From: Paenibacillus lutimineralis
Lineage (GTDB): Bacteria > Bacillota > Bacilli > Paenibacillales > Paenibacillaceae
Length of the DNA stretch: 64,000 nt
Assembly: GCF_003991425.1 (NCBI RefSeq)
Contig: NZ_CP034346.1
Span: forward strand, 719,501-783,500
Direction of reading: 5' to 3'
Shown: piece by piece, positions 1,135 through 18,876 of the stretch
Position numbering within the stretch: the stretch's first letter is position 1
Layout: each line of letters begins with the position of its first letter
Notes under the pieces: model-generated
Seen by the model: only the letters and a program-made list of their open reading frames with translations
What the model was told of the DNA's origin: nothing
The model's database searches: none
Program-made: the position numbers and the translations under genes

Positions 1135-2964
1135 CTATTGTTGAATCGTGTCAACCTCGACAACGGGAATGATGATTTGAATGATACCAGAAAGCCTTGA
1201 GAGAAGCTCATTCGTCGATCCGTCAGATTGTTCTTTCAGTACTTCCGCGATCAGTTCAATGAATTGCTGATCAATATTGAGTGCTGCGTTCTGCTCGGAG
1301 CGTCCCGTTACCGTTACATTTGCACCGGTGGGTAGAGAGAAATCACCTCGTAGAAGAACTAAGCTATTGCTGCCTGTGACAAGCGTTTCACCTGAAACAG
1401 AGTAAATCACAGTACCAGTGAATCGTACAAGAGTGTCAGGATACTGGCTAATCTTGTCGGCGGAAATATCAAGGATTTCCTGCTTAATGCCTGCGAACTG
1501 GTAACGGTCATCTGCACGAACGAAAATCGCTGTTTGTCCTTCACCATCGCCAACCGGATTAACCGCATAAATCGTATTGTCTGGCTGTATTGTCAGGCTA
1601 TCAGCCTCGATCGAGTATAGTTGGGCTATTTTATCCTCACGTACCTCAAAGGCATCATAACGTGCTTTTCTTGCCTCTGATGCTGTCTCGATTATAATAA
1701 CGGGATTATGGCCTGTACTCAGAATCGGATCGATAGATAAAGTACGGATTTGATCCTGCGAAGGCAGGTCATGATTTGTTAGAACCTGAACACTTTCCTC
1801 TGCATTCATCCGGCCAAAGTACAGCTGATTGTTCTGGCCGGTTGCCACCACATATGCTCTAGATCCGAATTTATCCCGTCCATCTACAACATGATTATAG
1901 CTACTTCCATCTGTTAGAGCAGGAAGAAGTCTTACTGGCTCAGCAATGGTCCAAGCCAGCTCTGTGGCGCTGATTTCCAACTTTGTATCCTGATAATGGC
2001 CAATGGCCGTGTATAGATCGATTGCTTCTTGGTAATTGCCATTCGCTACACTTTTCTTGGCGTTACGCATTAACTCATCCATTTTACCCTTAGCATAGGT
2101 GAGCAGTCTGGATTCTGAATGGACGGAGCTTGCAAATGATGTATACTGCCGCGAATGGATGGCGAATGCCGTGTAGTCGCTTTTGTCCCAGTCGCTGTTT
2201 AATAGCGCCTCCATTAAGTTATCTACATTGGAAATGACCCAAGGTCCATCAAACTTCACGGATTTATATTCTGCAAGCATGGAGGCAGCATTATCGAGCA
2301 TAGGCTCAATGAGACCTTGAGCAACCATCCGTGTCAGCTTAGTATCATCATATTTTTGGAAGGTAGCATTTAACTCATTAAGCCATTCCTGCTCTGTACC
2401 GAATAGATGGGCAGGGATCCTCAGCAGATTCTTTTTAAAGGATTCATCATTATAGCTCGAGCTGGTTAGATTTTGCTCCATTTGCTCTAGAAACAACGTT
2501 CTGAAATTTTTGAAATAGCCGGTGAAGGCTTGTGAAATGTTGAAATTATTAGACATCTGACGGTAATAGTCACTGTAAGGCTCCTCTGGAGCCAAATAAT
2601 GACTTCGTACCTGCTGAAGTTTTGCATATGCATCCATAAGGAGGTCGAAATCCTGTTTGCGATTTGCTCTAGAAGCTTGGTCAGTAATGTTCTCCAAGTC
2701 TCTTTTCATGGCAGTGATAGGAGCCAACTCCTCTAGTCGGGAGGAAATGAGCTCTTCTTTGTAACGAATCATCCGATTGCTTTGAGCCTTTTGATACCAG
2801 TCCACTGCTTCTACGAAGAGCTTCTCATGGAATAAGCGTTCGGCAGTCTGCAAAGCGTTAAGCTTTTGGGATATTCCAATCCCCTTGTAGACTAACAGAG
2901 GAATCGTCATTATACATAAAAAAATGAGCAGATGATGCAGGGTTAACCATTTTTTTAACGTCAT
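1135..2964 (-). CDS. Membrane-anchored protein with TPR-like repeats and a beta-rich C-terminus, tubulin/VWA cluster
   Basis: The 609-residue product has one N-terminal membrane segment (about residues 10-28, after a lysine-containing start), so most of it should lie outside the cell. Residues about 30-330 are helical, with TPR-like stretches such as LFVEAVDWYQKA and GNYQEAIDLYTAIGHYQDT. The last 270 residues are rich in beta strands and may form a propeller or sandwich. I do not recognise a named family and assign no enzyme activity. It is the last gene of a three-gene minus-strand operon: its ATG overlaps the preceding stop by ATGA. The operon diverges from the VWA/tubulin-like operon, which suggests one shared structure. 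Inferred role: extracytoplasmic scaffold or sensor. Confidence 0.75.
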   Translation of the reverse strand: MTLKKWLTLHHLLIFLCIMTIPLLVYKGIGISQKLNALQTAERLFHEKLFVEAVDWYQKAQSNRMIRYKEELISSRLEELAPITAMKRDLENITDQASRANRKQDFDLLMDAYAKLQQVRSHYLAPEEPYSDYYRQMSNNFNISQAFTGYFKNFRTLFLEQMEQNLTSSSYNDESFKKNLLRIPAHLFGTEQEWLNELNATFQKYDDTKLTRMVAQGLIEPMLDNAASMLAEYKSVKFDGPWVISNVDNLMEALLNSDWDKSDYTAFAIHSRQYTSFASSVHSESRLLTYAKGKMDELMRNAKKSVANGNYQEAIDLYTAIGHYQDTKLEISATELAWTIAEPVRLLPALTDGSSYNHVVDGRDKFGSRAYVVATGQNNQLYFGRMNAEESVQVLTNHDLPSQDQIRTLSIDPILSTGHNPVIIIETASEARKARYDAFEVREDKIAQLYSIEADSLTIQPDNTIYAVNPVGDGEGQTAIFVRADDRYQFAGIKQEILDISADKISQYPDTLVRFTGTVIYSVSGETLVTGSNSLVLLRGDFSLPTGANVTVTGRSEQNAALNIDQQFIELIAEVLKEQSDGSTNELLSRLSGIIQIIIPVVEVDTIQQ

Positions 2965-3908
2965 ATTATAGTAGACCTCGGCTTAATTTGTTGAAAGTCA
3001 GCGTCCCACTGATACTTTTCCTCATAGATTCGGGCTGTCTCGGCCGTGAGATTTCCCCAGTCAAGATTGGGGGACTCAGCGAGCATTCGGTATAATCTGA
3101 GAAAACGATCCTTGGGGAGCTTACGGGCATACCTGGCAATGAAGTCCGAATAGGCTAGAACGTAGCGTTTCAACCTAACGGCGGCTCCGGCAACTCCTGC
3201 CAGTATTTCTTCCCCTCGCTCCAAAGCCAGAAATTGCTGTTCATACTTTATAACATATTGGAATGTCTTATCTTTAATGAGTTCTCTCTTGATTTTAGCG
3301 AGCTCGCCAATATACTCGGCAAGATCAGAATCGAAGTCTTTTAGCAGAAGGGGCATCAGTTCCAGCTCCATATCCTTCCTTAGTACGAAGGATTGTAAAA
3401 GTATAAGCTGCAGCTTACGGATATGATCGTTATGAATGAGGGTCGCAATGTCCCGCATCATTTCATAGGAGCGGCCTTCTTCTCCATGTGCGACCGCGGC
3501 CTCAAGATTCCTCACCAGCCCTGCAGTGATTTTGTCACGATCAACCTCGATCAGCTTGCTCATTTCGATCGAGATGCGGCTTTCGAGAGCAGTGCGTTGC
3601 ACGAAATAGAGCAGCCCAAACAGGATAATGCCTGATGCGAGAGAAATGGCCATAAGCTGAAAGGTTTGGCTGAACAGAATTGCTAACAGCGTGAGAAAAG
3701 ACGCTAGCAGCAGGTCATTATACTGAGCTCGCTTGGCGGCATGACGTGCTTTGTCGAGAACCGGGCGTAGACCGGATTTGCCGCAAACGGTGCAATTTTC
3801 CTCCTGGAGCGCGGTATAATTCTGGCAATATTTACAGCATCTTAACTTTTCGTAGGCATATTTCGTTTTTAATGGAGGGTGTAAAATAACTGTTTTTTTC
3901 TTGTTCAT
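2961..3908 (-). CDS. Zinc-ribbon protein with two membrane segments, tubulin/VWA cluster
   Basis: This 315-residue protein starts with a four-cysteine zinc ribbon (C25-x2-C28 and C39-x2-C42, with an extra C24). Two adjacent membrane segments follow at about residues 66-106, then a long helical, charged C-terminal half that should be cytoplasmic. No named family was recognised. The ATG overlaps the stop of the 49-residue membrane peptide upstream, and its own stop overlaps the start of the 609-residue anchored protein, so the three are likely translated in a coupled way. The zinc ribbon recalls the split ribbon of the cluster's GTPase at 14351-15607. Inferred role: membrane adaptor. Confidence 0.75.
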   Translation of the reverse strand: MNKKKTVILHPPLKTKYAYEKLRCCKYCQNYTALQEENCTVCGKSGLRPVLDKARHAAKRAQYNDLLLASFLTLLAILFSQTFQLMAISLASGIILFGLLYFVQRTALESRISIEMSKLIEVDRDKITAGLVRNLEAAVAHGEEGRSYEMMRDIATLIHNDHIRKLQLILLQSFVLRKDMELELMPLLLKDFDSDLAEYIGELAKIKRELIKDKTFQYVIKYEQQFLALERGEEILAGVAGAAVRLKRYVLAYSDFIARYARKLPKDRFLRLYRMLAESPNLDWGNLTAETARIYEEKYQWDADFQQIKPRSTII

Positions 3909-4054
3909 AGCTCTCTCTCTTCATTGTTGATTAATTTTAGCAGTTTTCTGTCGAGCTCTGCCGGAGCAATGACTTGCTTCCTACGAGAGTAATATATAAA
4001 GGACTTAATAATGACAAATAGAAACAATAGAATGAGACATGCGTATGTAACCAT
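3905..4054 (-). CDS. 49-residue single-pass membrane protein, first gene of the minus-strand operon
   Basis: A short frame begins with ATG at 4054 and ends with TGA at 3905-3907. It reads MVTYACLILLFLFVIIKSF, then a positively charged YYSRRK and a polar helical tail ending LINNEEREL. One membrane segment (about residues 3-21) followed by a basic patch predicts the tail in the cytoplasm. AAAGGAAG six or seven bases before the ATG is a good ribosome-binding site. The stop overlaps the next start as ATGA, the coupling also used by the next two genes, which is strong support that it is real. No homologue is recognised. Confidence 0.75.
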   Translation of the reverse strand: MVTYACLILLFLFVIIKSFIYYSRRKQVIAPAELDRKLLKLINNEEREL

Positions 4055-4306
4055 ATGTAGCTTCCTTTCGTAATTAATGTTGAGGGTGATGATTCTATTT
4101 TGGAAATGTCAAAAAAATAGATGCATATTTTGGTAGATTATGGCGGTGTAGTCTTGTTTTATCTTAACGTTTTCTTAAGTATTATCTATTATCATAGTAT
4201 AGTATATATTTGGAACTACTCCTAATTTCATATGTACATCGCTGGATCATGAAAAAGGTCATAGTAGATTCGTATTTATTCTATTTCAAATTAAAGGAGC
4301 AATATT

Positions 4307-6124
4307 ATGCAGCATTGTTATAGACAATCTATACGTATATTGACGGTTATGATGGTCTTTTGGTTACTGGTAGGCTCTGTTGGCACCCCTATTTATGGAG
4401 CCTCGGCAGCCGCAAAGGGAGCTCAGACTCAGCAGACTTCATTAATCGATGCTGTGCTCGTTGTCGATGTAAGTAACTCGATGAAGACCAGCGACACGAA
4501 TAAAGTCGGAAATGAAGCGATGAAGATGTTCATCGACATGCTGTCCGCTCAAGGCGACAAGGTAGGGATAGTAGCATATACGGACAAAGTGCAGAGGGAG
4601 AAGGCATTGCTGAAGATTCAGTCTCCAGCTGATAAGCAGGATCTAAAAGATTTCATCGATGGATTAGATCGAGGACCCTACACAGATATTGCGGTAGGCG
4701 TTCGCGAGGCGGTTAAGGTGCTGCAAAACGGAGCTGAACCGGGGCATGAGCCGATGATCGTTCTGTTAGCAGACGGCAACAATGATTTCAACAAGAGCTC
4801 GGGACGGACGCAAAGCGAGTCTGACAAGGAGCTTGGCGAGGCCGTCGCTGAGGCTAAGGCGGCAGGCATTCCGATCTATACGATCGGTTTGAATGCAGAC
4901 GGCAAGCTGAATAAGGCGCCACTTACGGATCTAGCCCAGCAGACGGGCGCTAAGTCGTTCTCTACCAGCTCGGCGAATGATCTTCCACAAATACTTAGTG
5001 AGATATTTGCCAGCCATCTGAAGCTCAAAATCGTACCTATACAAAGCATGACGGGCAACGGAAGCTTCCAGGAAGTGACGGTTAACGTTCCGAATGCGAA
5101 CGTGCTTGAAGCCAATATTTCGATTATGTCAGCTAATCCTGTCACGGCGGAGCTGGTTAACCCGTCCGGTGATAAAGTGGCTATACCTTCGGATGAAGTT
5201 ATTTTGTCCAAGTCGAAAAGTTATTCTCTGATTAAGCTGCTAACTCCAGTCGAGGGGGATTGGAAGCTGAGGGTTAAAGGGGCAGCCAAGGACAAAATCG
5301 ATATTAATCTGGTATTTAATTACGATCTTGAGCTCGAGATGGACCCCATTGCATCGAAGAGCTATCAACGCGGTGATGATGTGAAAATCGGAGCGTATCT
5401 TACAAGCAATGGGCAGAAGCTGCAAAATGACGAGCTGTATACGAATATGAGCGCTGTTCTCATCGTTAAGGATATCGACAGCGGCAAGACCGAAGAAGTC
5501 AAGCTTAACAATACGGGGGACAAATTCGAAGGCACATTTAGCTTTTCCGAAGCCCATGAATACGAACTGAAGGTTCGCGCAGAGGAAAAAAGCTTCTACA
5601 GGGAATCCGCTCCTGTAACACTGAGTGCCAAAGGCAAAGCAGGTGCTACACCAGTACCAGCCCAGCCTAATCCGACGACAGTGGAAGAAGAGAAGCCGTT
5701 CCCTTGGCTAATCGTTGTTATATCAGCGGTAGGTTTGGCCGTAGTTGCAGCGGGTGCTTATTTTATCGCATCGTCAGTTAAGAAAGCGAACCGCGGATTC
5801 GTAGGCCAGATTGTCATCGAGATTCGCGATGAGAACACGAATGAGAGATCCTTCCCGCAGTATAAGAAGCTTACCTCGTTCAAAGGCAAGTTCAATCTCC
5901 ATCAACTGCTGCAACTGGCACCCGAGCTGAAGGAAACGGAGAAAATTGTATTTACTCCGGCTAAGGGAGATCGCATCACGCTGCGCAATGCCTCAGCTGC
6001 ACCGATCGAGAAATCGGGTCGGGCTGTGGATGCCTCCGCAGGACTTGAGCTTAAGAGCGGGGATCGAGTGACATTGCCACTACAACATATCGATAAGACG
6101 ATTTTCATAGAGTACCTGGTGTAA
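4307..6124 (+). CDS. Secreted, membrane-anchored von Willebrand factor A protein
   Basis: This 605-residue protein has a signal peptide (about residues 1-35, ending near GASAAAKG). A VWA domain follows with an intact metal-binding (MIDAS) motif: DVSNS at 54-58, a threonine in GPYTDIAVG and the aspartate of LLADGNND. Beta-sandwich-like repeats fill the middle. One membrane segment lies at about 466-488, and a basic C-terminal domain of about 115 residues should be cytoplasmic. VWA domains with intact MIDAS bind a ligand through a divalent metal. It opens the plus-strand operon. AAAGGAGCAATATT precedes the ATG. The ligand is unknown; a role in sensing or adhesion outside the membrane, linked to the GTPases inside, is inference. 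Confidence 0.85.
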   Translation: MQHCYRQSIRILTVMMVFWLLVGSVGTPIYGASAAAKGAQTQQTSLIDAVLVVDVSNSMKTSDTNKVGNEAMKMFIDMLSAQGDKVGIVAYTDKVQREKALLKIQSPADKQDLKDFIDGLDRGPYTDIAVGVREAVKVLQNGAEPGHEPMIVLLADGNNDFNKSSGRTQSESDKELGEAVAEAKAAGIPIYTIGLNADGKLNKAPLTDLAQQTGAKSFSTSSANDLPQILSEIFASHLKLKIVPIQSMTGNGSFQEVTVNVPNANVLEANISIMSANPVTAELVNPSGDKVAIPSDEVILSKSKSYSLIKLLTPVEGDWKLRVKGAAKDKIDINLVFNYDLELEMDPIASKSYQRGDDVKIGAYLTSNGQKLQNDELYTNMSAVLIVKDIDSGKTEEVKLNNTGDKFEGTFSFSEAHEYELKVRAEEKSFYRESAPVTLSAKGKAGATPVPAQPNPTTVEEEKPFPWLIVVISAVGLAVVAAGAYFIASSVKKANRGFVGQIVIEIRDENTNERSFPQYKKLTSFKGKFNLHQLLQLAPELKETEKIVFTPAKGDRITLRNASAAPIEKSGRAVDASAGLELKSGDRVTLPLQHIDKTIFIEYLV

Positions 6125-6276
6125 TCGCTTTTGATCACGTAGTGAATCAGGAAGTAACTCGGCATCGAATCTTGAACTCAACCGGGATTTCCGGTGCTCA
6201 CGTACCCAAAACGTACGCTTCGCTCCTCAATCCCTAGTTTCATTCAACCTTCTCGGTGCTGAAAACCGACTTTTTT
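6125..6276. repeat. MITE-like element, long form, with eroded ends
   Basis: From TCGCTTTTGATCACG to GAAAACCGACTTTTTT this segment matches the body of the element at 13466-13643 almost base for base, but lacks the outer GAGGTTGTTCAAAAAG and TTTGAAC ends. Its left edge abuts the stop codon of the VWA gene. The body contains its own palindromic section around CGTACCCAAAACGTACG. It fills the gap between the VWA gene and the tubulin-like gene without breaking either. Confidence 0.8.
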
Positions 6277-6300: not shown

Positions 6301-9300
6301 ATGAAGCCGATCGTTAGAGAACATATTCAGCAATTGGATGTATCGCTTGGCGGAGGTATTGTCAGCGATAAAATTCGGGTGGATACGATTGATAATCCAA
6401 TCCTTATTATTGGTCTTGGCGGAACCGGGATTGACGCCTTGCTTCGCCTGAAGTATCAAATTAACCGCAGATTCAAGCTGCCTGAGGATCCATTGTCCAA
6501 GAAGAAACGCGATAAGCCGGACAATGTGGAGTTTCTCGCTTTTGAGACCAACGAGCAGGATCGCAGTAAAAGGTACAAAGGAATCGGGCTCGATCCGATC
6601 AATGAATTTGTACTGCTGTCCAACCCGGAAATTGGCGGTCTACTGCAAAACCGCAGTATTCTAGAGCCGTACATTACAGACTGGCTGTCACCCGAGCTGA
6701 GTATTACCGATGGGATGAACGGTGCGGCAGGTGTGCGTCAGGCGGGGCGGCTGCTTCTTTTCACGAAGATTAATCAAGTCGTGCAGGCCATCGATAAGAA
6801 AATCAAGACCTTATCAGTAGGTACGAACAAGAAGCTGATGGTATTTCTACTTACTGGCTTGTCCGGCGGCACAGGCAGCGGCTGCTTCCTGGATATCGCC
6901 TATATTGTACGCGGAATTATTGAACGTGATCACGGTTCGGCAGGTATTGACCGCGTGAATACTCTCGGTTATTTGTTCACCCCGGATATCAATCTGTCCA
7001 ATAAGAGTCTAAGCGAGCATACGCGCGAGTACATTAAGAAAAATGGTTATGCCGCGTTGAAAGAGCTGGATTACTGGATGAACGTAGATAGTCGTGGTGA
7101 GAGGTTCAATCAGCAATACGGCAACATTTTGACAGTCAACTCGCCGTTGCCTCCTTTTAATCTATGTCATTTGATATCGGCAACCAATACAGAGGGCAAG
7201 CTGCTGGAGAACGCTTATGATTACTGTATGAACGTCACTGCGGAGAACATTACCAACTTCATGGCGAGTGAAGAGAAGCAATCTGGCGAAGAATTTGCTA
7301 TTCACGATTATATAAGTAATATCCGTACGAATATCGCACAAATGAACAAGGCTTACCCGGCTAACTATGAATACAACATTATTGGGGCCTCTTCGGCTGT
7401 GCTGCCGATCGAGGAAATGACGACTTACTTGGCCTATCGTCTGTTTGACAAGATGGACAAAATGTTCCAGCAATCGCCGACGCAGGAGGAAGTAGAGAAA
7501 TTTGCCCGTAAGATGGGCGTTGACCTCGATAGTATAGTTAAAGCGTTTGAATCTCGCGTACCCGACCCGCTTCCGGGTTATGAGAACAGTGAGCGGTTGA
7601 GCTATGCCAATGTTGTGAAGTCTCAAGTCGTGAATATGGACACGGAGCTGGAGCAAACCTTCCTCGCTCGGGCGAGAGAGGAATATATCAAAGCGAAGAA
7701 GCAGCTTCCAGGGGAATTCCTCGAGAAGTTCAGCGACCAGATTCGTCGTCTGTTTTTGCATCCGGAGCAAGGGCCGTTTTATGTATCGCGGCTGCTTTTC
7801 ACGGAGAAGGGCTTCTGTTTGCTGAAAATGCTGCTCTCCTATATCGAGGCATTGCGTGAGAATTTAGTGCGTATTCCTCGCGATATCGAGGCTGCGCAGG
7901 ATCAAGCGGATGATAAGCTAGGCGATGCCAAGAGTGCATTTGTGTCCAAGGAGAAGAAGAAGAACGCTTATATTGAAGCAAAAATAAATGAATACTGGCT
8001 CCACGCAGATGTTGAGCGTACAGAGCAAATGATTGAGTTCTATGAGGATCTGTATGATTTGCTGAATCGGGAGAATAACCGCATTTATAGTGTATTCACA
8101 GAAATATTAAATGCACTTAGCTCGATCTTCTCCAAGAACGGGGACATTCTGACGAGCGGTGACGAGCAGGTGGACCATAAGGGTAATAAAACCTACTACT
8201 GGAACATCGTGAGCGTACCCGACATTTCAAAGGTTGTCAGTGGCATTATGGATCAGAAGGATGTCGATGACCTGATCCGTGATTTCGCTACGGAATTGCT
8301 GGATCACTCCGATCAATGGGTGAAGGAGCAGGAAATTGATATTGTGAGCTCCATTTCTACTTTCCTCTCCGATAAGTTCGGTGATCTTATTACGAAGTCA
8401 ATGGAGGATTTCCTAGTCATTAAATATGGCCAGGATGAGCCGATCGAGAAGTTTGTTGAGCGTCAAATTGCTAGCAAGCTGGATGAGGAAGCTGTTCCGG
8501 TATTCCATTTGTCGAATAGTACAGGTAATTTGCATTTCCCTTCTTGGGGATTTGTATCTGTTCCAGTGCAGGCGCCGAGCATCCTGAAGGGGATTCGCAA
8601 CTATCAGAACAATGCGGTCGGAAAGTCCCATTTCACGGTCAAAGAGAGCGAAGTGAAGAACCGTATATTCTGGTTGAATACACGTAACGGGGTGCCATTG
8701 TTCGTGTACACGCCGCTCAAAGTATATGAGGAGAGCTATGAACGGACGATTTTGGATAAGGAAGGAATCGGTCGTCACCTCGTACAAACAGAGAAGAATA
8801 ACTGGACTTACCTGCCTTCGCCAATCCCTGAGAGATCCTGGGGCGAGACTTATTCCAATTCACGGGTACAGAGCTATAATGCTCGTGTGCGCGAGGAGTT
8901 CGCCAAATCGCTTCAGTTAAAGGTAATTGTGGAGAAGGATGCGGATCAAAATACGAGCAGCCGTTATTCTGTAAGGTTAACGAAGCCGTTCTCTTTGCAA
9001 GATAAACTGGCAGCGTATGATATGCGTCTAGAAGCTCCAAAGCCAAATCTAGGCGAGGTGAAACGCTGTGCTCTTGAGCTGAAGCAGCTGCTTGCTGAGG
9101 GACTTCCACAAGAAGGCGTTAAAGATATATTCGGAAGCATCAATGAAGAGATGGCCAAAGAGAATTTGATTCGCTCGCCAAAACTGATTACCCGCATGCG
9201 GCAGGAGATCGCAAAGTATGAGGAAATCGCGGCGATGGCAGCGAAGCTGGATGCAGTGCTGGCGCAGCATCAGGATGAGGAGAAGTGGCTTGATCAGTTC

Positions 9301-9690
9301 ATCGAGGCGATGTATACGATGACGATTACGAAGAAGGGCGCGCTGTATGTCTACGATCGTGATCCGGAAGAAGAAGCTTGGGAGCCATTTGCTAACCTGA
9401 TGAAGAGCCAAAATTATGTGGAATACGAAGTGTTTACACATTTTAGAGGCTTGGATGAGAAGAACCATAGCGTATTGATGCGCAAAGCGTCACGCCGGGC
9501 CACGGAGCTAACGGCTTCGGAGGATATCGAGCCGTTACTTCAGACGATGGGTGAGCTTGCAGATCGATTCCGTGAGGGGCGGGACTCGCTGGAATACGAG
9601 AAGGTTGAACTGGCAAACGGTGAGGATATGTATCAGTTCTACAAGCAGATAACAACTAAACTGAACGATATCCGCAGAAGGTTGAAATAA
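6301..9690 (+). CDS. Tubulin/FtsZ-like GTPase, large multidomain (Tubulin_2 type)
   Basis: The N-terminal third of this 1129-residue protein has the tubulin/FtsZ GTPase signatures. ILIIGLGGTGIDALLRL carries the first glycine loop (G38-G43), NVEFLAFETN follows as a core strand, and GLSGGTGSG at 186-194 is the tubulin signature loop that holds the phosphates. It then runs FNLCHLISATNTEG near residue 285. The remaining 800 residues are mostly helical, with coiled-coil-like charged stretches. This is far longer than FtsZ (about 380) and fits the tubulin-like proteins found with VWA and GTPase partners in bacteria. AATGGAGGAAACTTA precedes the ATG. Its stop overlaps the next start as TAATG. Filament formation is plausible but unproven. 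Confidence 0.85.
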   Translation: MKPIVREHIQQLDVSLGGGIVSDKIRVDTIDNPILIIGLGGTGIDALLRLKYQINRRFKLPEDPLSKKKRDKPDNVEFLAFETNEQDRSKRYKGIGLDPINEFVLLSNPEIGGLLQNRSILEPYITDWLSPELSITDGMNGAAGVRQAGRLLLFTKINQVVQAIDKKIKTLSVGTNKKLMVFLLTGLSGGTGSGCFLDIAYIVRGIIERDHGSAGIDRVNTLGYLFTPDINLSNKSLSEHTREYIKKNGYAALKELDYWMNVDSRGERFNQQYGNILTVNSPLPPFNLCHLISATNTEGKLLENAYDYCMNVTAENITNFMASEEKQSGEEFAIHDYISNIRTNIAQMNKAYPANYEYNIIGASSAVLPIEEMTTYLAYRLFDKMDKMFQQSPTQEEVEKFARKMGVDLDSIVKAFESRVPDPLPGYENSERLSYANVVKSQVVNMDTELEQTFLARAREEYIKAKKQLPGEFLEKFSDQIRRLFLHPEQGPFYVSRLLFTEKGFCLLKMLLSYIEALRENLVRIPRDIEAAQDQADDKLGDAKSAFVSKEKKKNAYIEAKINEYWLHADVERTEQMIEFYEDLYDLLNRENNRIYSVFTEILNALSSIFSKNGDILTSGDEQVDHKGNKTYYWNIVSVPDISKVVSGIMDQKDVDDLIRDFATELLDHSDQWVKEQEIDIVSSISTFLSDKFGDLITKSMEDFLVIKYGQDEPIEKFVERQIASKLDEEAVPVFHLSNSTGNLHFPSWGFVSVPVQAPSILKGIRNYQNNAVGKSHFTVKESEVKNRIFWLNTRNGVPLFVYTPLKVYEESYERTILDKEGIGRHLVQTEKNNWTYLPSPIPERSWGETYSNSRVQSYNARVREEFAKSLQLKVIVEKDADQNTSSRYSVRLTKPFSLQDKLAAYDMRLEAPKPNLGEVKRCALELKQLLAEGLPQEGVKDIFGSINEEMAKENLIRSPKLITRMRQEIAKYEEIAAMAAKLDAVLAQHQDEEKWLDQFIEAMYTMTITKKGALYVYDRDPEEEAWEPFANLMKSQNYVEYEVFTHFRGLDEKNHSVLMRKASRRATELTASEDIEPLLQTMGELADRFREGRDSLEYEKVELANGEDMYQFYKQITTKLNDIRRRLK

Positions 9691-12062
9691 TGGTTAGACA
9701 GAAGCTGGAGCAATTCGCCGTAGAATACGACCGGTCCGAAGAACGCCTTACCGGCAGAGGCGATGACCAGAGCAGCATTCATTACCCCGCTGTGTTTCTG
9801 TTTATCGGTGACAAGAGCCGTGAGGCGATTGAACCGATCATGCAGATGAATGAGAAGAGATGGGAGAATAGCGAGGGATTGATCTATCTCCACGCAGGCT
9901 CCGTGGAGGAGTCTGCTGCTGCTCGGGTGTTGGAGTACCGTATTCCAGTTACGGTACAAGAGGGCTCGATTTCGCCTACCTCACGCCGTGATATGTATCG
10001 GCAATTCTATGAACAAGTGCAAGGTTTGCCGGAGCTTAACCGAATTCTGAGAAAGGCTAGTGGAGCTCTGGCGGAGTATGGGAGACTGTACCCGTCCTTT
10101 GACCGGGTTCGTCTTTCTATCATTACGCGGGTCGATGACCCGCTTAATGTGTTTGTTCCGGAAATATCGCTTCTGGCAGAAGCAATATTCCGTCAGTCGT
10201 TCAAGGCAGTACAGATGGATTTGTATGCATTGATTAGCGAACGGGAAGGGGCTGAAGCTTTCGGATACAGCAGCTCGCTCGGCGTTGCGTTTCTGCGTGA
10301 GCTGAGTCTAATGCAGCAATCGGATTATACATTCAGCGCCCCCCTTCATGTGACAGAGGATGGACTTTCGATCCCAGTTACGCACCCGCCTTCTCCGTTA
10401 TTTGACCTTGTCTACATGATGTCCGATCGGGATGAGCGGGGATTCGCTTCACTGGGTGGCTTGCAAACCTGCTACGAGGCGATTTCTCATATTAGTCTGC
10501 TCAAGAACAGACAGCAGAAGGAGCCGTTGTTCCATGCGAATAATGAGGTTTATAACAACACCTCATTCAAAAATAACATTATGACGGAATCCGGACGGCA
10601 AGGCTTTGTATCTGCTGGATTGTCCAAAGTAAAACGTCCGAATCAGTCGATTGCGCTTGCGGTACTGCATCACTTCTACAGAGGCTTATTGGCACGGATG
10701 AAGCGAGAGCCTGATTTATCTACTACAGAGAAGCTGGCCTTTTTTGGAGTGGATGGAACGGCACTGGATCGGGCTGCTGGAGAGATGATTCCTACAGAGG
10801 AACGCCTTAGCGAAATGCATGGCCTTATGACGAATGACATCAGTTATGCCGCCGTTCGCAAGTTGTCGTTGAAAGAAGCCGAGGAGGCTTTATTTGGCGG
10901 CGGTGGAGAGGCGTTCTTCCGCGGTAATTTCCAGGATGAAGCGGCACGTCTTCTGAAGGAGTTCAAGGCTGGCGAGTGGATCGATAGGGCGATCAAGCGA
11001 TCGCTGACCGATTATCCTGATGTTGAGGTATACTGTCTGGCCGCCTGGACAGCGGATGAGGGGCTAAATGGTTCCGTTGGAATTATGGCTCCGCTTCGCT
11101 CCGCTCGCAGGGAAGCGGAAATGCGGCTGGCATCGGCGAGGGCCGAGCTGGATCAGTTCCGCCAGGGGCGCGTGGAAGAGCAGTCGTTCCCACGTGTTCC
11201 GCTGATGGATCGGCATAACCTACGCAGCTTGATCCGCTACCTATTCGACCAGGTCTATTCGCGGAGAAGAGAGATATTGCTGCTGGAGATGAGACTGAAG
11301 CTGATTATGAAGTTTGAAGAAGCCATTCAGCAATTGAATGGCCGGTACCTTGTCGTGATCGGTCAGCTTGAGACGCTGGAGCAATTGCTGCGTGATACAG
11401 CGCTGAGCAGTATTGAGACTGCAGATGATTATATTGGACAGAACATCATGGAGTACTATGAGCGCACTACTGCTGACATTATGGAGCAGTGGGAAAGTAA
11501 ACGGGGACAGTATGCGTTTTTCACAGAGAGCACAATGGGAGATTCGAGGTGTCTGCTTGAGAAAGGTATAGAGGGGTTGGCGGATAAGCTCATCGAGGTT
11601 TGCCGCAAGACCATTTTAACGTCACCGATGTTCTCACGCACGTTCGAGGAAGAACTGCTACAGCGGGCCAATGTGACTGTCGAATACGGCAACAAAACCG
11701 TACTTACCAAGGAAGAGCTGTTCAAGAAGCTCTACCGCATTCTCGAGGATAATGCCGCGATTCAGCTTCGGCTATACGATTACACCCAGGAGCATCGTTA
11801 TGAGGAAAAGTATGTGTTCGGCGATTACACGAGCGAGTTCGTACAGCATATTTTCCGAGCGGATGAAACGTCAAGAATTTATAAGCTCGGTTGTGTCCAT
11901 GAGAAACGAAGCAGCGGTGTAGAGAAGTTGAATCTCATGGGTGGCTTCCATCCGGAAGACCTGATGTATTACGTGAATGGGAAAGTATATTACGAAACTT
12001 ATTTGCAGAACGGGTATGAATTTCACGGGATTGAGAAGTCAAAGCTGCCAGAGTTCAGTTGA
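9690..12062 (+). CDS. Probable degenerate tubulin-like partner of the preceding GTPase
   Basis: No named family is obvious for this 790-residue protein, but hydrophobic strands match the tubulin-like protein upstream at the same spacing. AVFLFIGDKSREAIEPI sits near residue 34, where the upstream protein has ILIIGLGGTGIDALL. VRLSIITRVDDPLNVFVPE near residue 140 sits where the signature loop should be. FDLVYMMSDRDERG near residue 236 aligns with FNLCHLISATNTEG. Both glycine loops are lost, so GTP binding is unlikely. The C-terminal half is helical and charged. The start codon overlaps the previous stop by one base. Inference: a non-hydrolysing subunit pairing with the active GTPase. Confidence 0.6.
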   Translation: MVRQKLEQFAVEYDRSEERLTGRGDDQSSIHYPAVFLFIGDKSREAIEPIMQMNEKRWENSEGLIYLHAGSVEESAAARVLEYRIPVTVQEGSISPTSRRDMYRQFYEQVQGLPELNRILRKASGALAEYGRLYPSFDRVRLSIITRVDDPLNVFVPEISLLAEAIFRQSFKAVQMDLYALISEREGAEAFGYSSSLGVAFLRELSLMQQSDYTFSAPLHVTEDGLSIPVTHPPSPLFDLVYMMSDRDERGFASLGGLQTCYEAISHISLLKNRQQKEPLFHANNEVYNNTSFKNNIMTESGRQGFVSAGLSKVKRPNQSIALAVLHHFYRGLLARMKREPDLSTTEKLAFFGVDGTALDRAAGEMIPTEERLSEMHGLMTNDISYAAVRKLSLKEAEEALFGGGGEAFFRGNFQDEAARLLKEFKAGEWIDRAIKRSLTDYPDVEVYCLAAWTADEGLNGSVGIMAPLRSARREAEMRLASARAELDQFRQGRVEEQSFPRVPLMDRHNLRSLIRYLFDQVYSRRREILLLEMRLKLIMKFEEAIQQLNGRYLVVIGQLETLEQLLRDTALSSIETADDYIGQNIMEYYERTTADIMEQWESKRGQYAFFTESTMGDSRCLLEKGIEGLADKLIEVCRKTILTSPMFSRTFEEELLQRANVTVEYGNKTVLTKEELFKKLYRILEDNAAIQLRLYDYTQEHRYEEKYVFGDYTSEFVQHIFRADETSRIYKLGCVHEKRSSGVEKLNLMGGFHPEDLMYYVNGKVYYETYLQNGYEFHGIEKSKLPEFS

Positions 12063-12068
12063 CTCTAA

Positions 12069-12121
12069 GGGGTTGTTCAAAAGGTCCGCTTTTGATAAGA
12101 AAACCGAACCTTTGAACATGC
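12069..12121. repeat. MITE-like element, internally deleted copy
   Basis: GGTTGTTCAAAAGGTCCGC and TTTTGAT, the left end of the family, are joined directly to GAAAACCGAACC and TTTGAACATGC, its right end. The central hundred bases found at 13466-13643 are missing. It lies between the degenerate tubulin-like gene and the second VWA gene. Confidence 0.75.
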
Positions 12122-12171: not shown

Positions 12172-13464
12172 ATGCAGCGTAAAATAAACTGGCTTCTGGT
12201 GCTATTCAGTCTTATTGGCGGAGCAGTTGGGGCTGTAATCGGAGAACTGCTGCTTAACCAGCTAGAAGGCAGGCTGCCCTGGATCGTCATCATTGGACTT
12301 TACTTCGGCATACTTGCCCTGTCCGTAGGATTATTCTGTTTAATCGCGGAAATGGTCTCCCCCCGTCTTAACGGGACGTCATGGAGACAACGTTATGTCG
12401 GTACTTCATGGAAGCTGCTTGTACCGGCGACGCTAGTTATGCTCCTGCTCGCAGGAACCGCCTTGGAATTTTTATATGAGTTGAATGTAGGTCGGGCGAA
12501 ATCGGTAGACGATATCGTCTTAATGATTGATAATTCCGGGAGTATGCTGGAGACAGATCCTGATGATCGCCGTTATGAAGCGGCCAAATCATTGATCGGG
12601 CAATTGGATAGTAACAAACAGGTCGCAGTCATTGTATTCAATAACCAGTCTGAACTCATCCAGCCCTTTGTTCATGTAAGTGATCAGGATGTGAAGAATC
12701 AAGTATATGCAGCGATTGATGCGCTCGAGCCAACCAATGCAGGCACAGATATCGGCGATGCGCTCTTATCATCGATGAAGCAGATCAAAGGGCAACCCAG
12801 TACTAGGGGGGCTATGGCGATCCTATTATCGGACGGTGTAAGCGAAGTCAATACGGCAAGAGTGCTGGCTGACTACCGGGATAGAGGCGTATCCGTTAAT
12901 ACCATCGGTCTTGGCCTTAGCTCAGCTAACGGTAATATTGAGGGTGTGGATCTGCTCAAGGAAATTGCCACAAAGACAGGTGGAAAGTATTATGATGTGG
13001 CGGATGCGTCCAATCTTTCTTTTGTTTTCCAGACCATATACGACAACAACCTGAATGAACGTACTCTGGTTACGGAACGTACCGGACCAATGAAGGACAG
13101 CACTTATTATATGATCCTAAGAATCATATTTGTACTTGGGTTAGGCGCGCTAATTGGCTTGTCGCTCGGAATGATGTTCGATAACCGTCATTTGGCTAAA
13201 AGTTTTACGATCGGCGGTTCTGTATCCGGGCTGCTTGCAGGGTTGCTATTGGAGTTTGGCTTAAGTGGAGGTACATTAGCTGACGCGTTGATCCGGCTGT
13301 TGGCCTGCCTTGTTCTTGCTTCAGTGATGACGATGTTCACGCTTGCCGTCCCTATGCCGGCGAATGGTGTCCGAACGGTTATGCGTCGCAGGGGAGCAAC
13401 ACTTCAGGACGGCAAGACAGGATTCCAAGAGCCCGTCAGAGATCGGCGCAATAGAGGATTCTAG
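12172..13464 (+). CDS. Multispanning membrane protein with an extracytoplasmic VWA domain
   Basis: This 430-residue protein has three N-terminal membrane segments (about residues 7-28, 37-58 and 83-100). A VWA domain (about 115-290) follows with an intact MIDAS: DNSGS at 120-124, a threonine in NAGTDIGDALL, and the aspartate of AILLSDGVSE. Three more membrane segments (about 313-390) precede a basic tail. A basic N-terminus and an odd number of spans place the VWA domain outside and the tail inside. GGGAGGAAGTGCACGA precedes the ATG. It is the second VWA protein in the cluster and has a different topology from the first, so the two may form one extracytoplasmic complex; that is inference. Confidence 0.85.
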   Translation: MQRKINWLLVLFSLIGGAVGAVIGELLLNQLEGRLPWIVIIGLYFGILALSVGLFCLIAEMVSPRLNGTSWRQRYVGTSWKLLVPATLVMLLLAGTALEFLYELNVGRAKSVDDIVLMIDNSGSMLETDPDDRRYEAAKSLIGQLDSNKQVAVIVFNNQSELIQPFVHVSDQDVKNQVYAAIDALEPTNAGTDIGDALLSSMKQIKGQPSTRGAMAILLSDGVSEVNTARVLADYRDRGVSVNTIGLGLSSANGNIEGVDLLKEIATKTGGKYYDVADASNLSFVFQTIYDNNLNERTLVTERTGPMKDSTYYMILRIIFVLGLGALIGLSLGMMFDNRHLAKSFTIGGSVSGLLAGLLLEFGLSGGTLADALIRLLACLVLASVMTMFTLAVPMPANGVRTVMRRRGATLQDGKTGFQEPVRDRRNRGF

Positions 13465-13465
13465 A

Positions 13466-13643: not shown

Positions 13644-13667
13644 ATTAAAGTGTAAGGGGGCATAGCA

Positions 13668-14321
13668 ATGCGATTTATTGAGGCAGAGGAAGGCTTGCCG
13701 CTCATAACACAGCTTAGTTACAAGATCGATGAGGATCGCTGCAGGCTATTGTGGCAATGGCCTGATGGAATACAAGCGGTGTATATCTATAAAGGGTCTT
13801 CAGATCGAGAGCAGCAGGGGGAAGCCGACTATGGCTATCCTCCCTCTGTTGCAGGTCTAAAGCTGTATACCCGTGAAGAATATAAAGCGGCTGGAGGCTA
13901 TATTGACCGGATAGATACGATTGGCTTGGCGGCTTATACGGTCTATGCCTGTCTGATGGATGACGGGGACAAACGCTTGGTCTATCAGCCTGATGGGCAG
14001 AATACCGTCCAATTCAGTACGGGCCGAGCCAAGATCCGCTACTCTATCACTCATAAGAGCATTTTGCTTCGCAAATACAAGACGGTGCAGATATCTGTGC
14101 TGGCTGAAGTAGATATTCCAAAAGAAGCGCTTTGTTATGTGAAGAAGCAGGGCAATTATCCGGTAAGTATAGATGACGGAACAGTATATCCTTTTCTGAG
14201 AGATTTCCCTTCAGGCAGGAGTACACTGCCCGCGATCGAGGTCGGAAAGAACGATTATGTAAGGCTGTTCTTTACGGATGGCCCTAAGTATGGAAGGTTA
14301 TACGAGCTGATTCCAGAGTAA
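13668..14321 (+). CDS. Hypothetical beta-rich protein of the tubulin/GTPase cluster
   Basis: This 217-residue cytoplasmic protein has no signal peptide, no membrane segment and no recognised family. It is rich in predicted beta strands. The first half contains CRLLWQWPDGIQAVYIYK, which has the look of a fibronectin-type or other immunoglobulin-like sandwich. The second half (from about residue 118, TGRAKIRYSI) looks like another sandwich. AAGGGGGCATAGCA precedes the ATG. It lies 29 bases upstream of the zinc-ribbon GTPase and should be co-translated with it, so a role as adaptor or regulator of that GTPase is the simplest inference. Confidence 0.7.
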   Translation: MRFIEAEEGLPLITQLSYKIDEDRCRLLWQWPDGIQAVYIYKGSSDREQQGEADYGYPPSVAGLKLYTREEYKAAGGYIDRIDTIGLAAYTVYACLMDDGDKRLVYQPDGQNTVQFSTGRAKIRYSITHKSILLRKYKTVQISVLAEVDIPKEALCYVKKQGNYPVSIDDGTVYPFLRDFPSGRSTLPAIEVGKNDYVRLFFTDGPKYGRLYELIPE

Positions 14322-14350: not shown

Positions 14351-15607
14351 ATGGGTCTGTTCGATTTGTTTAAAAGGAAACCCCAGGCCGAAGAGCGGCC
14401 TTTATTTTATGATATTGTATGTCCCTATTGTTTCAGTAAATTCGAAATGGACGAGGTAGTGTTCAGGGCGACGCATTATCGTGAGGATGATGAGGATTAT
14501 GCTCTTGGCGAGGACGAGGCTCTGAACAAATACAGGGAGAGATTTGGTCTCGATACCGTCTATGATATGGAAGCTATTTTGCGTCCTCAGGACGTTCCAG
14601 AAGAGCATCTCATTTATTCGGATCATGTTCTGATCGGATTGAATGATCGTTATGGGGAAGTGACAAGACACAGGTTGTGTCCGCATTGTCATAATGAGCT
14701 GCCAGTAACTGCGGGGAAAGTGCCTAGTAATATCATTTCGATCATTGGGGCTTCTCAGGTGGGGAAATCCGTCTACATGACTTCATTGATTCATACCCTG
14801 CAGAACACGACGGCGGATCATTTTGATGCGGCTTGTATGCCACTTAATGCTGAAATCAGCCGCAAATTCCGGACCTTATACGAAGAACCGTTGTTTGAGC
14901 GTGGCGATTTGCTGGCATCGACCCAGAAGGAGAAAATGCAGGAGCCGTTTATTTTCCAGTTTGTATTCAAGGATGAATCGAAGCCGCCACTAACGCTCGT
15001 TTTCTTTGATGTTGCGGGTGAAGGCATGGTCGATCAGGATTATCTTGGATTACAGGGTCAGCATATCAAGAATTCTTCAGGTCTACTGTTCATGGTCGAT
15101 CCACTTCAAATTCGCTCGATTCGGGAGAAAATACGCATCAATGTTGGAGATAAACCGGGCGAATGGGTATCGCAATATGATGAGCCACGTGATGTAGTGT
15201 TGACGATGTTCGGTGATTTCATCGCTTATGAGGATCAAGGGAAGACGGATATACCGACTGCGGTAGTGCTAACGAAGAGTGATATGCTTCATGTCTTGAA
15301 GGATGAAGAGGGAGAGTATATCAAGTCCAATAGCAATATTTTTAATAATGCAGTGCATCGTAAACATTTTAATATTACTGAATTCGAGAATATCGATGGC
15401 GAAATTCGCCGTTTTATTGAAAAAGTGGATCGGCCATTTAAAGGTACGATGGATGTCTATTTCAAGGATACAGGGTACTTTGCAGTATCTGCGCTCGGTA
15501 GCAATCCTATTGATCAGAAGCTGCAAAATGTCGTCCAGCCTATACGCGTGGATGAACCGTTCATTTGGCTGATGTATAAATTGAATTACATTGAGGGGAG
15601 AGAGTGA
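14351..15607 (+). CDS. Zinc-ribbon P-loop GTPase (DO-GTPase-like)
   Basis: All nucleotide-binding motifs of a TRAFAC-type GTPase are visible in this 418-residue protein: GASQVGKS at 133-140 (Walker A), DVAG at 220-223 (the DxxG switch) and TKSD at 308-311 (guanine specificity). The GTPase domain is preceded by a split zinc ribbon whose two CPxC pairs, C24/C27 and C110/C113, are separated by an 80-residue acidic insert. The combination fits the DO-GTPases predicted to work with GAP1-type partners. GAGGAGGAATGGGAG precedes the ATG. Its last codon overlaps the start of the GAP1-like gene (GTGA), the tightest coupling in the operon. Expected to be a cytoplasmic molecular switch; its signal is unknown. 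Confidence 0.8.
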   Translation: MGLFDLFKRKPQAEERPLFYDIVCPYCFSKFEMDEVVFRATHYREDDEDYALGEDEALNKYRERFGLDTVYDMEAILRPQDVPEEHLIYSDHVLIGLNDRYGEVTRHRLCPHCHNELPVTAGKVPSNIISIIGASQVGKSVYMTSLIHTLQNTTADHFDAACMPLNAEISRKFRTLYEEPLFERGDLLASTQKEKMQEPFIFQFVFKDESKPPLTLVFFDVAGEGMVDQDYLGLQGQHIKNSSGLLFMVDPLQIRSIREKIRINVGDKPGEWVSQYDEPRDVVLTMFGDFIAYEDQGKTDIPTAVVLTKSDMLHVLKDEEGEYIKSNSNIFNNAVHRKHFNITEFENIDGEIRRFIEKVDRPFKGTMDVYFKDTGYFAVSALGSNPIDQKLQNVVQPIRVDEPFIWLMYKLNYIEGRE

Positions 15608-18600
15608 CCGTGAGGCAAGCTTCTCCCACAATGATTCAGCAGCAATTGTATACAAGAGAGCGGAGCGGTATATTTCGCGGAACGGAAGGATTTGATACTG
15701 TCGCGGTATCGGACGGATTGGATGCGGTGTTCATTAAGAAACAGCTCCATCCGTTCTGTGGCTATGATGCTCCTGCAGAGCTGGCCTCCCGAGGAGAGAA
15801 GGAAATAAGCAGTTATCCGCCGGCGATTCATCTATTCCATACCGAGGGCGGAGAGACGGTGCTGGGGCGGAGCATTTATCAACCCGTAGATTTTACCGGT
15901 CTGCGCAGTGCGTTCCTGACGCATAACTACGTAATTCCATCAGCGCGGCTGGATGAGATCGTGACCCATTACGGTAATTATCTTAATGCCGATTATGCGG
16001 AGAAATATTACACGGAAATCGGTCGGCAGCTCCCGGAACTGGATGACATACCGCAGAAATCGCAGAACCAGCAACATGTGCAGAACAGCCCGACAGGTCT
16101 GACAGCTGAGAAGCTTCTTAAGGAGATAAAGCTGGACGAGAAGAGCTTTAAACAGTTGCTATTCGCTGTCATGACTGCAGTTGGAGAAGGCAGAAAAAAG
16201 GTATATGTTGCCCTTGATGTTCCGGCAGAGCAGATTTCGCAATATTCTGTAGCGCTGCTTAAAGTACTATTCGCCTGTCTGCCATTCGAACTGCGCCGCC
16301 GCTTCGGATTTATCACCTATGCCAAGGAGCCGCAAAGCCGAAAGTTTATACATCTGCAATTCGTGGAGCGCGGTAGTCTGCGTCCTAATGACCGAGAAAT
16401 TGAAAAGGAATATGTATTCGACCTCGCTTCAGGACGATTACCGCAGGATGAGGTAGATGAAGGCAAACAGCCTTATCTTGATTTTGTCTGGAATGCGATC
16501 GGTGAGCTTGGGGTCTTGGAGAACTTCCATCGCTTTGCTGATGAGATGTTGTCAGGGATGGATCCCCAACGCCGGGCTTTATTATCTAGCTATCATGAGC
16601 TGTGCGTGTTCTATCAAATTGAATCGGAACGTTGGGATTTGTATGAAAAACATAAAATAACCGTGCTGCGGGGGTTGCTAAGTTATTTGGAACCCCACGG
16701 TGCCCTGGATTCCAGAATTCGGCTAAATGATATATTTCTAGCTGCTTTTGACCGGGAATTTGATAGCATCAAGCAAGGAAGTATTGTAGAGCTGGCGATA
16801 GTGGAATGCTTCAGGGATTATTATCGGCTGGAAAGCCGGAGTTATGGCCCCAAGCTTGTTAATTATTTGATTCATGCAGTTAATAATTCATTGACTGAAG
16901 GCAGAACCGAGCTCGCCTATTCATTGTACGCTTTGATAGAGAGTCAGTCGGAGCTGAGTAAAGCCTTTTTTGGTACGGTCTTGAAGCTTGGCGAGCTGTC
17001 TAACCGGTTGTTCGATCCCTACATTCAGAACAAGCTTGCGGAGACGCAAGGTTCAAAGGAAGTTCTGAATGTGGTGCATAGCTGGGCGATCGCTCATCCA
17101 GGCTTGTTACAGAGTGCTTCCTTCAAGGAAATAGCTGTTGCAGGTCTAACGGACAAGCTGCGCAAGGAACAGCGATTACTATCTTCTGTCCATATGACGG
17201 TAGATAGTATCCGTAAATGGGCAAGAACGCCTCTTCCTGATAGCGGAATGACTGTGGCGGATTCGGAGCTGGCGGAGCTTCTCTCGCTTTCTGCCAAGCG
17301 TCTGCTGCTTGATGAACTGGAACTGGACAAGCTGACCCAGGATCAGGTGACAACCGCAGCGTTTTTAGGTGAAGCAGATGCCTTTGCCGGCCTGCAGCTT
17401 GACAGTAAGCAGCGTAGTCATGCGGAGATGCTGCGAACGTTATACGAATGGTTTGCGCAGCGTGAGCCAACGGAGGATGTTTTCCGTCTATTGTCTTCTG
17501 AGGAACTGGATCGGATCCAGAAGCTCGGGCGTAAATGGCTTCAATCCAGTATCGAAGTGGAGCAGTTTGGAAAGATCGTACTGGCATTCTGCCAAGACTC
17601 GGCAGTCGGGATTATTGATTACAATCAAGTCATGGATTATTTACAGCGGCATGCCAAGGACAAGGAGAAGATTTACGAATTTATGCTCTGGTCGCAAGGA
17701 AATTCTTACTTTGTTCATGCTCGGGGGCTTGCTCCCGGTTATTCTGCGGCAATACTAGCATACTTTAAAAAGCATGATAAGGATGCGTTTAAGAGCAGAG
17801 ACTATCGGACCCGTTACTTCGATAAAGCGGGAGCACCGCTTGCGAAGGTATTCGCCGATGCGCGTCTCACGCTGTCTTCGCCACTCAAGCGATTTCTTGT
17901 TCAGAACGGGAAAAAGGTGAGAATGACCACTCTTATTGTGGCTTTGGGTCTTGTTGTGGCAGTTGGCTTTCTATTCATCTTGCAGCAGCAAGGGATGCTT
18001 GGTGCAAAGGCGCCCGTTGAAGCCACTCCGCCACCTACACAGGATTCTGGGGTGCTTGTATATGCCGAGAATGTTAAAGGCAGCGACGGAACCGAGACAA
18101 CTTCGCTTGTATTTCTGTTTAAGGGGGAGGAGCAGTGCAAGGTCTTTGATCCCTCAAATCTGATGATAGAGTCACAGGGCCAGTCTGCTCAGCAGTTTAA
18201 GAATTTGAAATATGACTCGAATTGTGTGGTAGCGGACGCTGGAACGGAAGATTCGGAAGCGACAGATCCAGGCGGCGAAGTTGATGGAACAGATGGAAAA
18301 GATGGAACAGAAGGAATCGATGGAACAATAAAGGATACAGAAGAAATAGATAAGGCAAAGGGTAATAATACAGGCGAAAATGGGGCAGCAAGTGGGAAGG
18401 AAACAGGGAAAGAAGACACAGCGCAATCCGGTTCCCAAAAAACGAAAACGGGTGGAAACGATGCGTCTAATGCTACTAACTCAACCAACTCGACTAACCC
18501 GACTAATGGAACCAAGGGAACTAATGGAACCAGTGAAGACAGTGGAAACAATGGAAGCAATGGGAAAAATCCAGCGGATGCAACTACAACTAACGCAACT

Positions 18601-18876
18601 AATGGGACCAATCTGCCTGATGCGGGCAATTCTAATGTAACAGATCCGGCGGATGCATCTAACCCTAACGGGCTTGACGATACTTCTAAGCCCGGTGAGA
18701 CTGCCGGTACGGATGACGGTGAGACGAAGGATTCCGCGTATACATTCCGGATTGTAGTCTCATTAGGCATGAAGCTGGATATATCGGCAGGGAGCGTGAT
18801 TAAGCTAGGGGAACAACAGTATACGGTTATTACCCGCGAAGAGGCAGAATCAGGTAGCAATTTAGTCAGCCCTTAG
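15604..18876 (+). CDS. GAP1-like GTPase-associated membrane protein with an Asn/Thr/Gly-rich linker
   Basis: The N-terminus of this 1090-residue protein (about residues 8-130, IQQQLYTRERSGIFRGTEGF onward) resembles the GAP1-N2 domain of predicted GTPase-associated proteins. A long helical middle follows. One membrane segment lies at about 775-797. The outside tail holds a low-complexity stretch (about residues 880-1040) of repeated DGT, TNxTN and NGT units. A small beta domain (YTFRIVVSLGMKLDI) closes the protein. It starts with GTG, overlapping the GTPase stop, so the two proteins are probably partners. The many Asn-x-Thr units form an extended linker. A direct effect on GTP turnover is inferred from family naming only. 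Confidence 0.7.
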   Translation: MTVRQASPTMIQQQLYTRERSGIFRGTEGFDTVAVSDGLDAVFIKKQLHPFCGYDAPAELASRGEKEISSYPPAIHLFHTEGGETVLGRSIYQPVDFTGLRSAFLTHNYVIPSARLDEIVTHYGNYLNADYAEKYYTEIGRQLPELDDIPQKSQNQQHVQNSPTGLTAEKLLKEIKLDEKSFKQLLFAVMTAVGEGRKKVYVALDVPAEQISQYSVALLKVLFACLPFELRRRFGFITYAKEPQSRKFIHLQFVERGSLRPNDREIEKEYVFDLASGRLPQDEVDEGKQPYLDFVWNAIGELGVLENFHRFADEMLSGMDPQRRALLSSYHELCVFYQIESERWDLYEKHKITVLRGLLSYLEPHGALDSRIRLNDIFLAAFDREFDSIKQGSIVELAIVECFRDYYRLESRSYGPKLVNYLIHAVNNSLTEGRTELAYSLYALIESQSELSKAFFGTVLKLGELSNRLFDPYIQNKLAETQGSKEVLNVVHSWAIAHPGLLQSASFKEIAVAGLTDKLRKEQRLLSSVHMTVDSIRKWARTPLPDSGMTVADSELAELLSLSAKRLLLDELELDKLTQDQVTTAAFLGEADAFAGLQLDSKQRSHAEMLRTLYEWFAQREPTEDVFRLLSSEELDRIQKLGRKWLQSSIEVEQFGKIVLAFCQDSAVGIIDYNQVMDYLQRHAKDKEKIYEFMLWSQGNSYFVHARGLAPGYSAAILAYFKKHDKDAFKSRDYRTRYFDKAGAPLAKVFADARLTLSSPLKRFLVQNGKKVRMTTLIVALGLVVAVGFLFILQQQGMLGAKAPVEATPPPTQDSGVLVYAENVKGSDGTETTSLVFLFKGEEQCKVFDPSNLMIESQGQSAQQFKNLKYDSNCVVADAGTEDSEATDPGGEVDGTDGKDGTEGIDGTIKDTEEIDKAKGNNTGENGAASGKETGKEDTAQSGSQKTKTGGNDASNATNSTNSTNPTNGTKGTNGTSEDSGNNGSNGKNPADATTTNATNGTNLPDAGNSNVTDPADASNPNGLDDTSKPGETAGTDDGETKDSAYTFRIVVSLGMKLDISAGSVIKLGEQQYTVITREEAESGSNLVSP

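Follow-up and report, generated by a model that had tools for sequence, protein, structure and literature searches.

Two computational papers have described gene sets that combine tubulin-like proteins, vWA-domain proteins and GTPases, and they give such sets different meanings. Makarova and Koonin (2010; PMC2875224) reported FtsZl1 operons in which a tubulin-like gene is linked to vWA and GTPase genes, and proposed a role in membrane remodelling. According to that paper, FtsZl1 is without recognisable T6-H7 elements, and one of its reviewers asked how a cytosolic FtsZ-like protein could meet vWA proteins lying outside the cell. Kaur (2020) described in section 29 a firmicute theme that combines a pair of tubulins and a pair of vWA proteins with a zinc-ribbon GTPase and a polar-tailed GAP1 protein, and read the GAP1-N2/DO-GTPase systems as conflict systems. 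As far as the accessible parts of two later papers go, a 2023 paper on evolution set the FtsZl1/Tubulin_2 family aside, and a 2024 PSP paper placed DO-GTPases in some psp operons and predicted a role in membrane stress. A literature search of titles and abstract openings, in which subscription literature was thinly covered, returned no experimental work on the system and no test of either proposal.

In the present study, we analysed a stretch of 64,000 nucleotides (hereafter the window) from the 6.5 Mb genome of Paenibacillus lutimineralis (contig NZ_CP034346.1, positions 719,501 to 783,500). Ten genes between window positions 1135 and 18876 encode tubulin-like, VWA, GTPase, GAP1 and membrane proteins (Table 1). 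The results indicated that these genes form one system, which fits a Paenibacillales form of the tubulin-type GAP1-N2/DO-GTPase system. A tubulin without GTP loops that is constantly paired with an FtsZ-constrained one would be an unusual arrangement for a cytoskeleton in bacteria, one that the linked VWA proteins would connect to the cell surface.

The Ten Genes Form One Unit

All ten genes, in two divergent and tightly coupled operons, were found where an earlier sequence-only reading of the window had placed them. The three genes of the minus-strand operon overlap by 4 nucleotides (nt) each; in the plus-strand operon of seven genes, the overlap is 1 nt between tub1 and tub2 and 4 nt between gtp and gap1. 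The same reading had taken the whole set as a single system, an interpretation that would fail if the operons occurred independently. We followed one marker per operon, znr and gap1 (detected as GAP1-N2), in 118 sampled genomes of the window's family; this and the other genome surveys (order, phylum and genus, as well as the flank and FtsZ counts) were even samples of genomes. GAP1-N2 was found in 55 of the 118 genomes, with a single match per carrier. Both markers were present in 55 genomes, both were absent from 63, and neither was ever found alone (0/118 discordant). They shared one contig in 54 of the 55 carriers and lay on two contigs in G102. Since znr and gap1 never occurred apart, these results indicated that the ten genes form a single system, as had been proposed.

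The gene order was then compared among loci. For tub1, 80 of 290 relatives were kept, and 133 tub1 loci were reduced to 114 by removing identical tub1 sequences. All ten genes were present in 56 of these distinct loci and all but tpr in 52. Among the remaining six, one lacked only a pep match, three were cut by contig ends, and two stopped before znr, which a genome search located just beyond the stretch examined. The order and strand of the genes found were identical in all 114 loci, and a gene was split into two reading frames in six. The tpr gene was found in 58 of the 114 loci and was missing from 50 of the 108 in which its place was readable; two loci in the group of 52 without it lay too close to a contig or stretch edge to judge. 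A Paenibacillus polymyxa record (L110) carried the cluster without tpr. The pep sequence was aligned in 110 sequences including that of the window, and a profile match was lacking in one complete locus (L081). A tandem second copy of vwa1 was observed in two genomes (L049 and L050).

Tubulin-Like Proteins and Conservation

The tub1 protein fits the FtsZl1 (Tubulin_2) family by sequence: an FtsZ-like N-terminal domain carries the GGTG(S/T)G loop, and the GTP loops were 97-100% conserved. In tub2, the GTP loops were replaced, and a conserved TRVDDPLN occupied the loop position. A Tubulin_2 match at E up to 1 was obtained from 37 of 47 alignment members of tub2 and none from the window's own sequence, and the structure model gave a tubulin fold. 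On the basis of this model, tub2 is predicted to be a tubulin-fold protein without both GTP loops, and it was classed only as tubulin-fold. The long helix of the model (71 residues; Table 1) is a candidate coiled coil. Many tub2 homologues among the matches listed were named 'transcription initiation factor TFIID', a label that fits neither the Pfam matches nor the predicted fold. A separate FtsZ was present in 118/118 sampled family genomes; therefore, tub1 and tub2 are not the division tubulin.

To compare conservation, mean pairwise identities, including those for FtsZ, were calculated in 20 of the carrier genomes. Residues 1-380 of tub1 reached 93.9%, compared with 93.5% for residues 1-310 of FtsZ and 91.3% for rpoB; at full length, the values were 81.2% for tub1 versus 87.7% for FtsZ. 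Lower identities were obtained for the DO-GTPase (82.0%), vwa1 (60.6%), tub2 (50.0%), znr (42.8%) and gap1 (37.9%). The cytosolic tail of vwa1 reached 69% and the outer tail of GAP1 21%, and tpr showed 35% in a 40-genome comparison. By this ranking, the cytosolic GTP-using core is frozen and the outer and adaptor parts drift.

Domain Assignment and Membrane Topology

Pfam confirmed tub1, gap1 and both VWA proteins, and the DO-GTPase marginally. GAP1-N2 and GAP1-M scored 152.9 and 104.2 bits (cut-offs 24), and DO-GTPase2 scored 28.8 bits against a cut-off of 27. The CPxC pairs of gtp were 100% conserved, and the metal sites of vwa1 and vwa2 were 99-100% conserved. Hydropathy analysis gave vwa1 a signal peptide or anchor plus one transmembrane (TM) helix, vwa2 TM helices on both sides of the VWA domain, gap1 one TM helix with a polar tail after it, znr a hairpin of two helices, and pep and tpr one helix each; no TM helix was found in tub1, tub2, beta or gtp. 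These results agreed with the DO-GTPase and GAP1 identities and the intact VWA metal sites of the sequence-only reading, and the hydropathy profile fits its scheme with the VWA domains outside and the GTPases inside. A YtkA domain gave no Pfam match at E<=1 in the ten proteins, where a diverged domain could escape. An FNIII-repeat component was not detected, the beta protein having no credible match (Table 1), and the Pfam scan of the ten proteins returned no transporter, kinase or OmpA family.

Distribution and Inheritance

The closest tub1 relatives among the matches listed were Paenibacillus records, with up to 97% identity. In the order sample, GAP1-N2 was found in 102 of 198 genomes. For the sister family, 15 of the 38 carriers in that sample were fetched, and the tubulin cluster was present in 14 of the 15 loci read; among the 14 clusters, one was cut by a contig end, four were without a pep match and one was without tpr. 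Together with the constant order in the 114 loci, this bore out the neighbourhood conservation that the sequence-only reading had named as a check. The fifteenth sister-family locus (L265, genome G610) showed a different GAP1-N2 arrangement with DO-GTPase-like genes, and the tubulin cluster was absent. In the phylum sample, GAP1-N2 matched in 10 of 398 genomes (9 above the cut-off), 7 of them in the window's family. Two of the other three loci contained DO-GTPase-like genes and no tubulin cluster, and one stretch begins near a contig end.

Within the window's genus, GAP1-N2 was found in 17 of 30 sampled genomes. The block occupied one site in 8 of the 30, with its two flanking genes 17.6-19.5 kb apart. 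The same flanks were less than 0.5 kb apart in 15 genomes (6 with GAP1-N2 elsewhere and 9 without it) and 2.8-5.3 kb apart in 3 with GAP1-N2 elsewhere; the last 4 had neither a clear flank match nor GAP1-N2. The ten genes were read through in order in three of the eight filled sites and in three genomes carrying the block elsewhere. Adjacent flanks were dropped as proof of loss: in 9 of the 17 carriers the block sits at another place, and therefore an empty site alone does not mean loss. Between genera, the flanks differ and the inner gene order is constant.

Trees were built, with FastTree only, from seven cluster proteins in 40 genomes. These trees and the rpoB comparison covered 40 of the 55 carriers (G000 and 39 others). 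Six of the seven multi-member genera were monophyletic in the cluster tree and all seven in the rpoB tree, and the two trees shared 24 of 37 splits. The pairwise identities of the cluster proteins tracked those of rpoB loosely (rank correlations 0.20-0.50). The system is old, and its inheritance looks mostly vertical, though cassette-like.

Features of the Cluster and Its Neighbourhood

Table 1. Genes of the tubulin/VWA/GTPase cluster, with window positions.
Gene	Position	Strand	Features
tpr	1135..2964	-	N-terminal membrane anchor, alpha-solenoid, C-terminal beta domains (propeller-like and OB-like); optional; model pLDDT (predicted local distance difference test) 88.8
znr	2961..3908	-	Zinc ribbon CxxC...CxxC (100% conserved), two-helix membrane hairpin, conserved helical cytosolic domain
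pep	3905..4054	-	Single-pass membrane peptide, 49 residues
vwa1	4307..6124	+	Signal peptide/anchor, extracellular VWA with intact metal site, one TM helix, conserved cytosolic tail of ~110 residues
tub1	6301..9690	+	FtsZl1/Tubulin_2 protein, GTP loops intact, followed by a long region of ~740 residues
tub2	9690..12062	+	Predicted diverged tubulin-fold protein without GTP-binding loops (pseudo-tubulin); long helix 507-577 of model
vwa2	12172..13464	+	Multi-TM protein, extracellular VWA, metal site intact
beta	13668..14321	+	Conserved soluble protein, 217 residues; no credible Pfam or PDB sequence match
gtp	14351..15607	+	Zinc-ribbon DO-GTPase; P-loop, DxAGE and TKSD motif residues 82-100% conserved
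gap1	15604..18876	+	GAP1-N2 and GAP1-M domains, one TM helix, polar low-complexity extracellular tail

A repeated intergenic element of about 180 bp with short inverted ends lies in the cluster spacers at 13465-13645 and 6126-6276, with a remnant at 12067-12096. It was read as similar to a miniature inverted-repeat transposable element (MITE-like), and 43 genome matches were counted among those listed; 40 of 353 first-look candidates were scored. Upstream of vwa1 (4164-4179), we observed a TTAA-type direct repeat with 11-bp spacing, a type present in 40 of 111 intergenic stretches.

Near the cluster lie genes for a kinase-like AAA protein, a two-component pair, a solute-binding protein and ABC transporters. 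A cobalamin riboswitch (43463-43766, 85.7 bits) lies immediately upstream of ribonucleotide reductase genes on the minus strand (one of NRDD type and one with Ribonuc_red_lgC). Defence genes were searched for with PADLOC models. None of the ten cluster proteins matched at E 0.001, and the best match at E up to 0.1 had an E-value of 0.015. Among the neighbours of the cluster in the window, Pfam was run on ten proteins and PADLOC on ten, the two sets overlapping in part. An SNF2-type helicase gene about 37 kb downstream (56015-58990) matched ZorD (E 4e-144) and also DpdE, over the general SNF2 region (Pfam SNF2-rel_dom and Helicase_C). The gene beside it (pair spanning 56015-60633) matched the candidate model PDC-S62 (E 6e-16). 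The other, nearer scanned neighbours gave matches to ATPase-type models or none, and no search was aimed at further Zorya or Dpd genes. Given the strong ZorD/DpdE matches 37 kb from the cluster, a description of the window as being without defence genes was dropped. We do not class the neighbourhood as a defence island, and it does not disprove one either.

Proposed Function

We propose, with a probability of roughly one half, that the ten genes encode one envelope-associated cytoskeletal machine. Beneath the cytoplasmic membrane, tub1 and tub2 would build a GTP-dependent polymer or lattice, for which the vwa1 tail and the znr hairpin would serve as anchors. Assembly may be set by the DO-GTPase/GAP1 pair acting as a switch. 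The two metal-dependent VWA domains outside the cell would recognise a ligand in the wall or at the surface and gate this switch. The vwa1 tail and znr would also be a candidate link between the cytosolic FtsZ-like protein and the outside vWA proteins. The likely job would be envelope shape, repair or remodelling, rather than immunity with swapped effectors. The data leaned toward a conserved envelope machine over a conflict system, without deciding between them, because the tub1 core showed FtsZ-like constraint, GAP1-N2 was single-copy, inheritance looked mostly vertical and effector exchange was not seen.

Several observations weigh against this proposal. Polymer formation is uncertain because FtsZl1, as described in the accessible part of the 2010 paper, is without recognisable T6-H7 elements. 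The tub2 model has a middling pLDDT of 74.8, with a poor C-terminus inside the tubulin-aligned range, and sequence profiles alone failed to link tub1 with tub2 (probabilities 3.8 and 2.2). The topology was derived from hydropathy only, and the literature search found no experiment. The cluster was absent from 63 of the 118 family genomes, so the family as a whole can do without it. Rapid evolution of the outer parts is what a conflict system might also show. In addition, 6 of 33 well-supported cluster-tree splits clashed with well-supported rpoB splits, and the block lies at differing sites even inside one genus; some transfer is therefore possible.

The first alternative is the anti-invader conflict system of Kaur, in which the DO-GTPase would be switched when infection is sensed, and the infected cell would be contained or killed by tubulin polymers or membrane parts. 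Kaur (2020) argues for this from variable components on a constant core, shared conflict effectors and a bias toward multicellular taxa. The fast outer parts (the GAP1 outer tail at 21% and tpr at 35%) could represent an arms race, and the ZorD/DpdE-matching helicase and its PDC-S62 neighbour also point in this direction. However, components were not exchanged in the 114 loci, where only tpr was variable and vwa1 was doubled in two. The core was conserved like FtsZ, each carrier held one GAP1-N2, inheritance was mostly vertical and no cluster protein had a PADLOC match at the 0.001 threshold. The helicase match lay in the general SNF2 region, and among the ten scanned neighbours the other matches were of ATPase type. 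Taken together, the conflict role seems doubtful to us, though it deserves consideration.

In a second alternative, suggested by a reviewer of the 2010 paper (PMC2875224), tub1 and tub2 would be a stable, non-polymerising scaffold of an outside-in signalling or transport device. The missing T6-H7 elements of FtsZl1 and the missing GTP loops of tub2 are consistent with this. In contrast, a tub1 core conserved at the level of FtsZ suggests a surface for repeated self-contact, and the ten proteins gave no match to a transporter or kinase family. We consider a static scaffold unlikely. It is more improbable still that the cluster is an integrin-like transmembrane coupler, in which tub1 and an obligate GTP-dead tub2 would form a mixed polymer that is set by the DO-GTPase/GAP1 pair and read out or gated by the VWA receptors. 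Finally, two separate systems, one per operon, joined by chance in this genome would suit the two divergent transcription units and the frequent absence of tpr (50/108 readable loci), but the 55 joint presences, 63 joint absences and zero discordance, with linkage across two families while the flanks differ between genera, make this explanation practically negligible.

Comparison with Known Systems

The sequence-only reading had presented the set as a candidate undescribed system; its outline is, in fact, already given in section 29 of Kaur (2020) and in Makarova and Koonin (2010; PMC2875224). With the firmicute theme of Kaur, the cluster shares a zinc-ribbon DO-GTPase beside GAP1-N2/M, a GAP1 protein with a polar C-terminal extension, two tubulin proteins and two vWA proteins, one of which is a multi-TM protein with the vWA domain outside. 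A YtkA fusion and FNIII repeats, which also belong to that theme, were not detected in the cluster. The accessible text does not mention the pep, znr and tpr genes, the missing GTP loops of tub2 or a constraint on tub1 comparable to that on FtsZ, and it stresses hypervariability, whereas component exchange was not seen in our 114 loci. With the FtsZl1 operons, the cluster shares an FtsZ-like N-terminal domain with GGTG(S/T)G, a linked MIDAS vWA protein and a diverged GTPase; unlike them, it gave no match to an OmpA or kinase family, and it contains a GAP1 partner as well as a second tubulin that lacks the GTP loops. The likeness to FtsZ, TubZ, CetZ and tubulin lies in the predicted fold of tub2 and the GTP signature of tub1, whereas the cluster proteins carry large helical additions. 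To the outline already described, the present study adds a constant divergent operon, a predicted second tubulin without GTP loops, FtsZ-level constraint on tub1, and cassette-like, mostly vertical inheritance.

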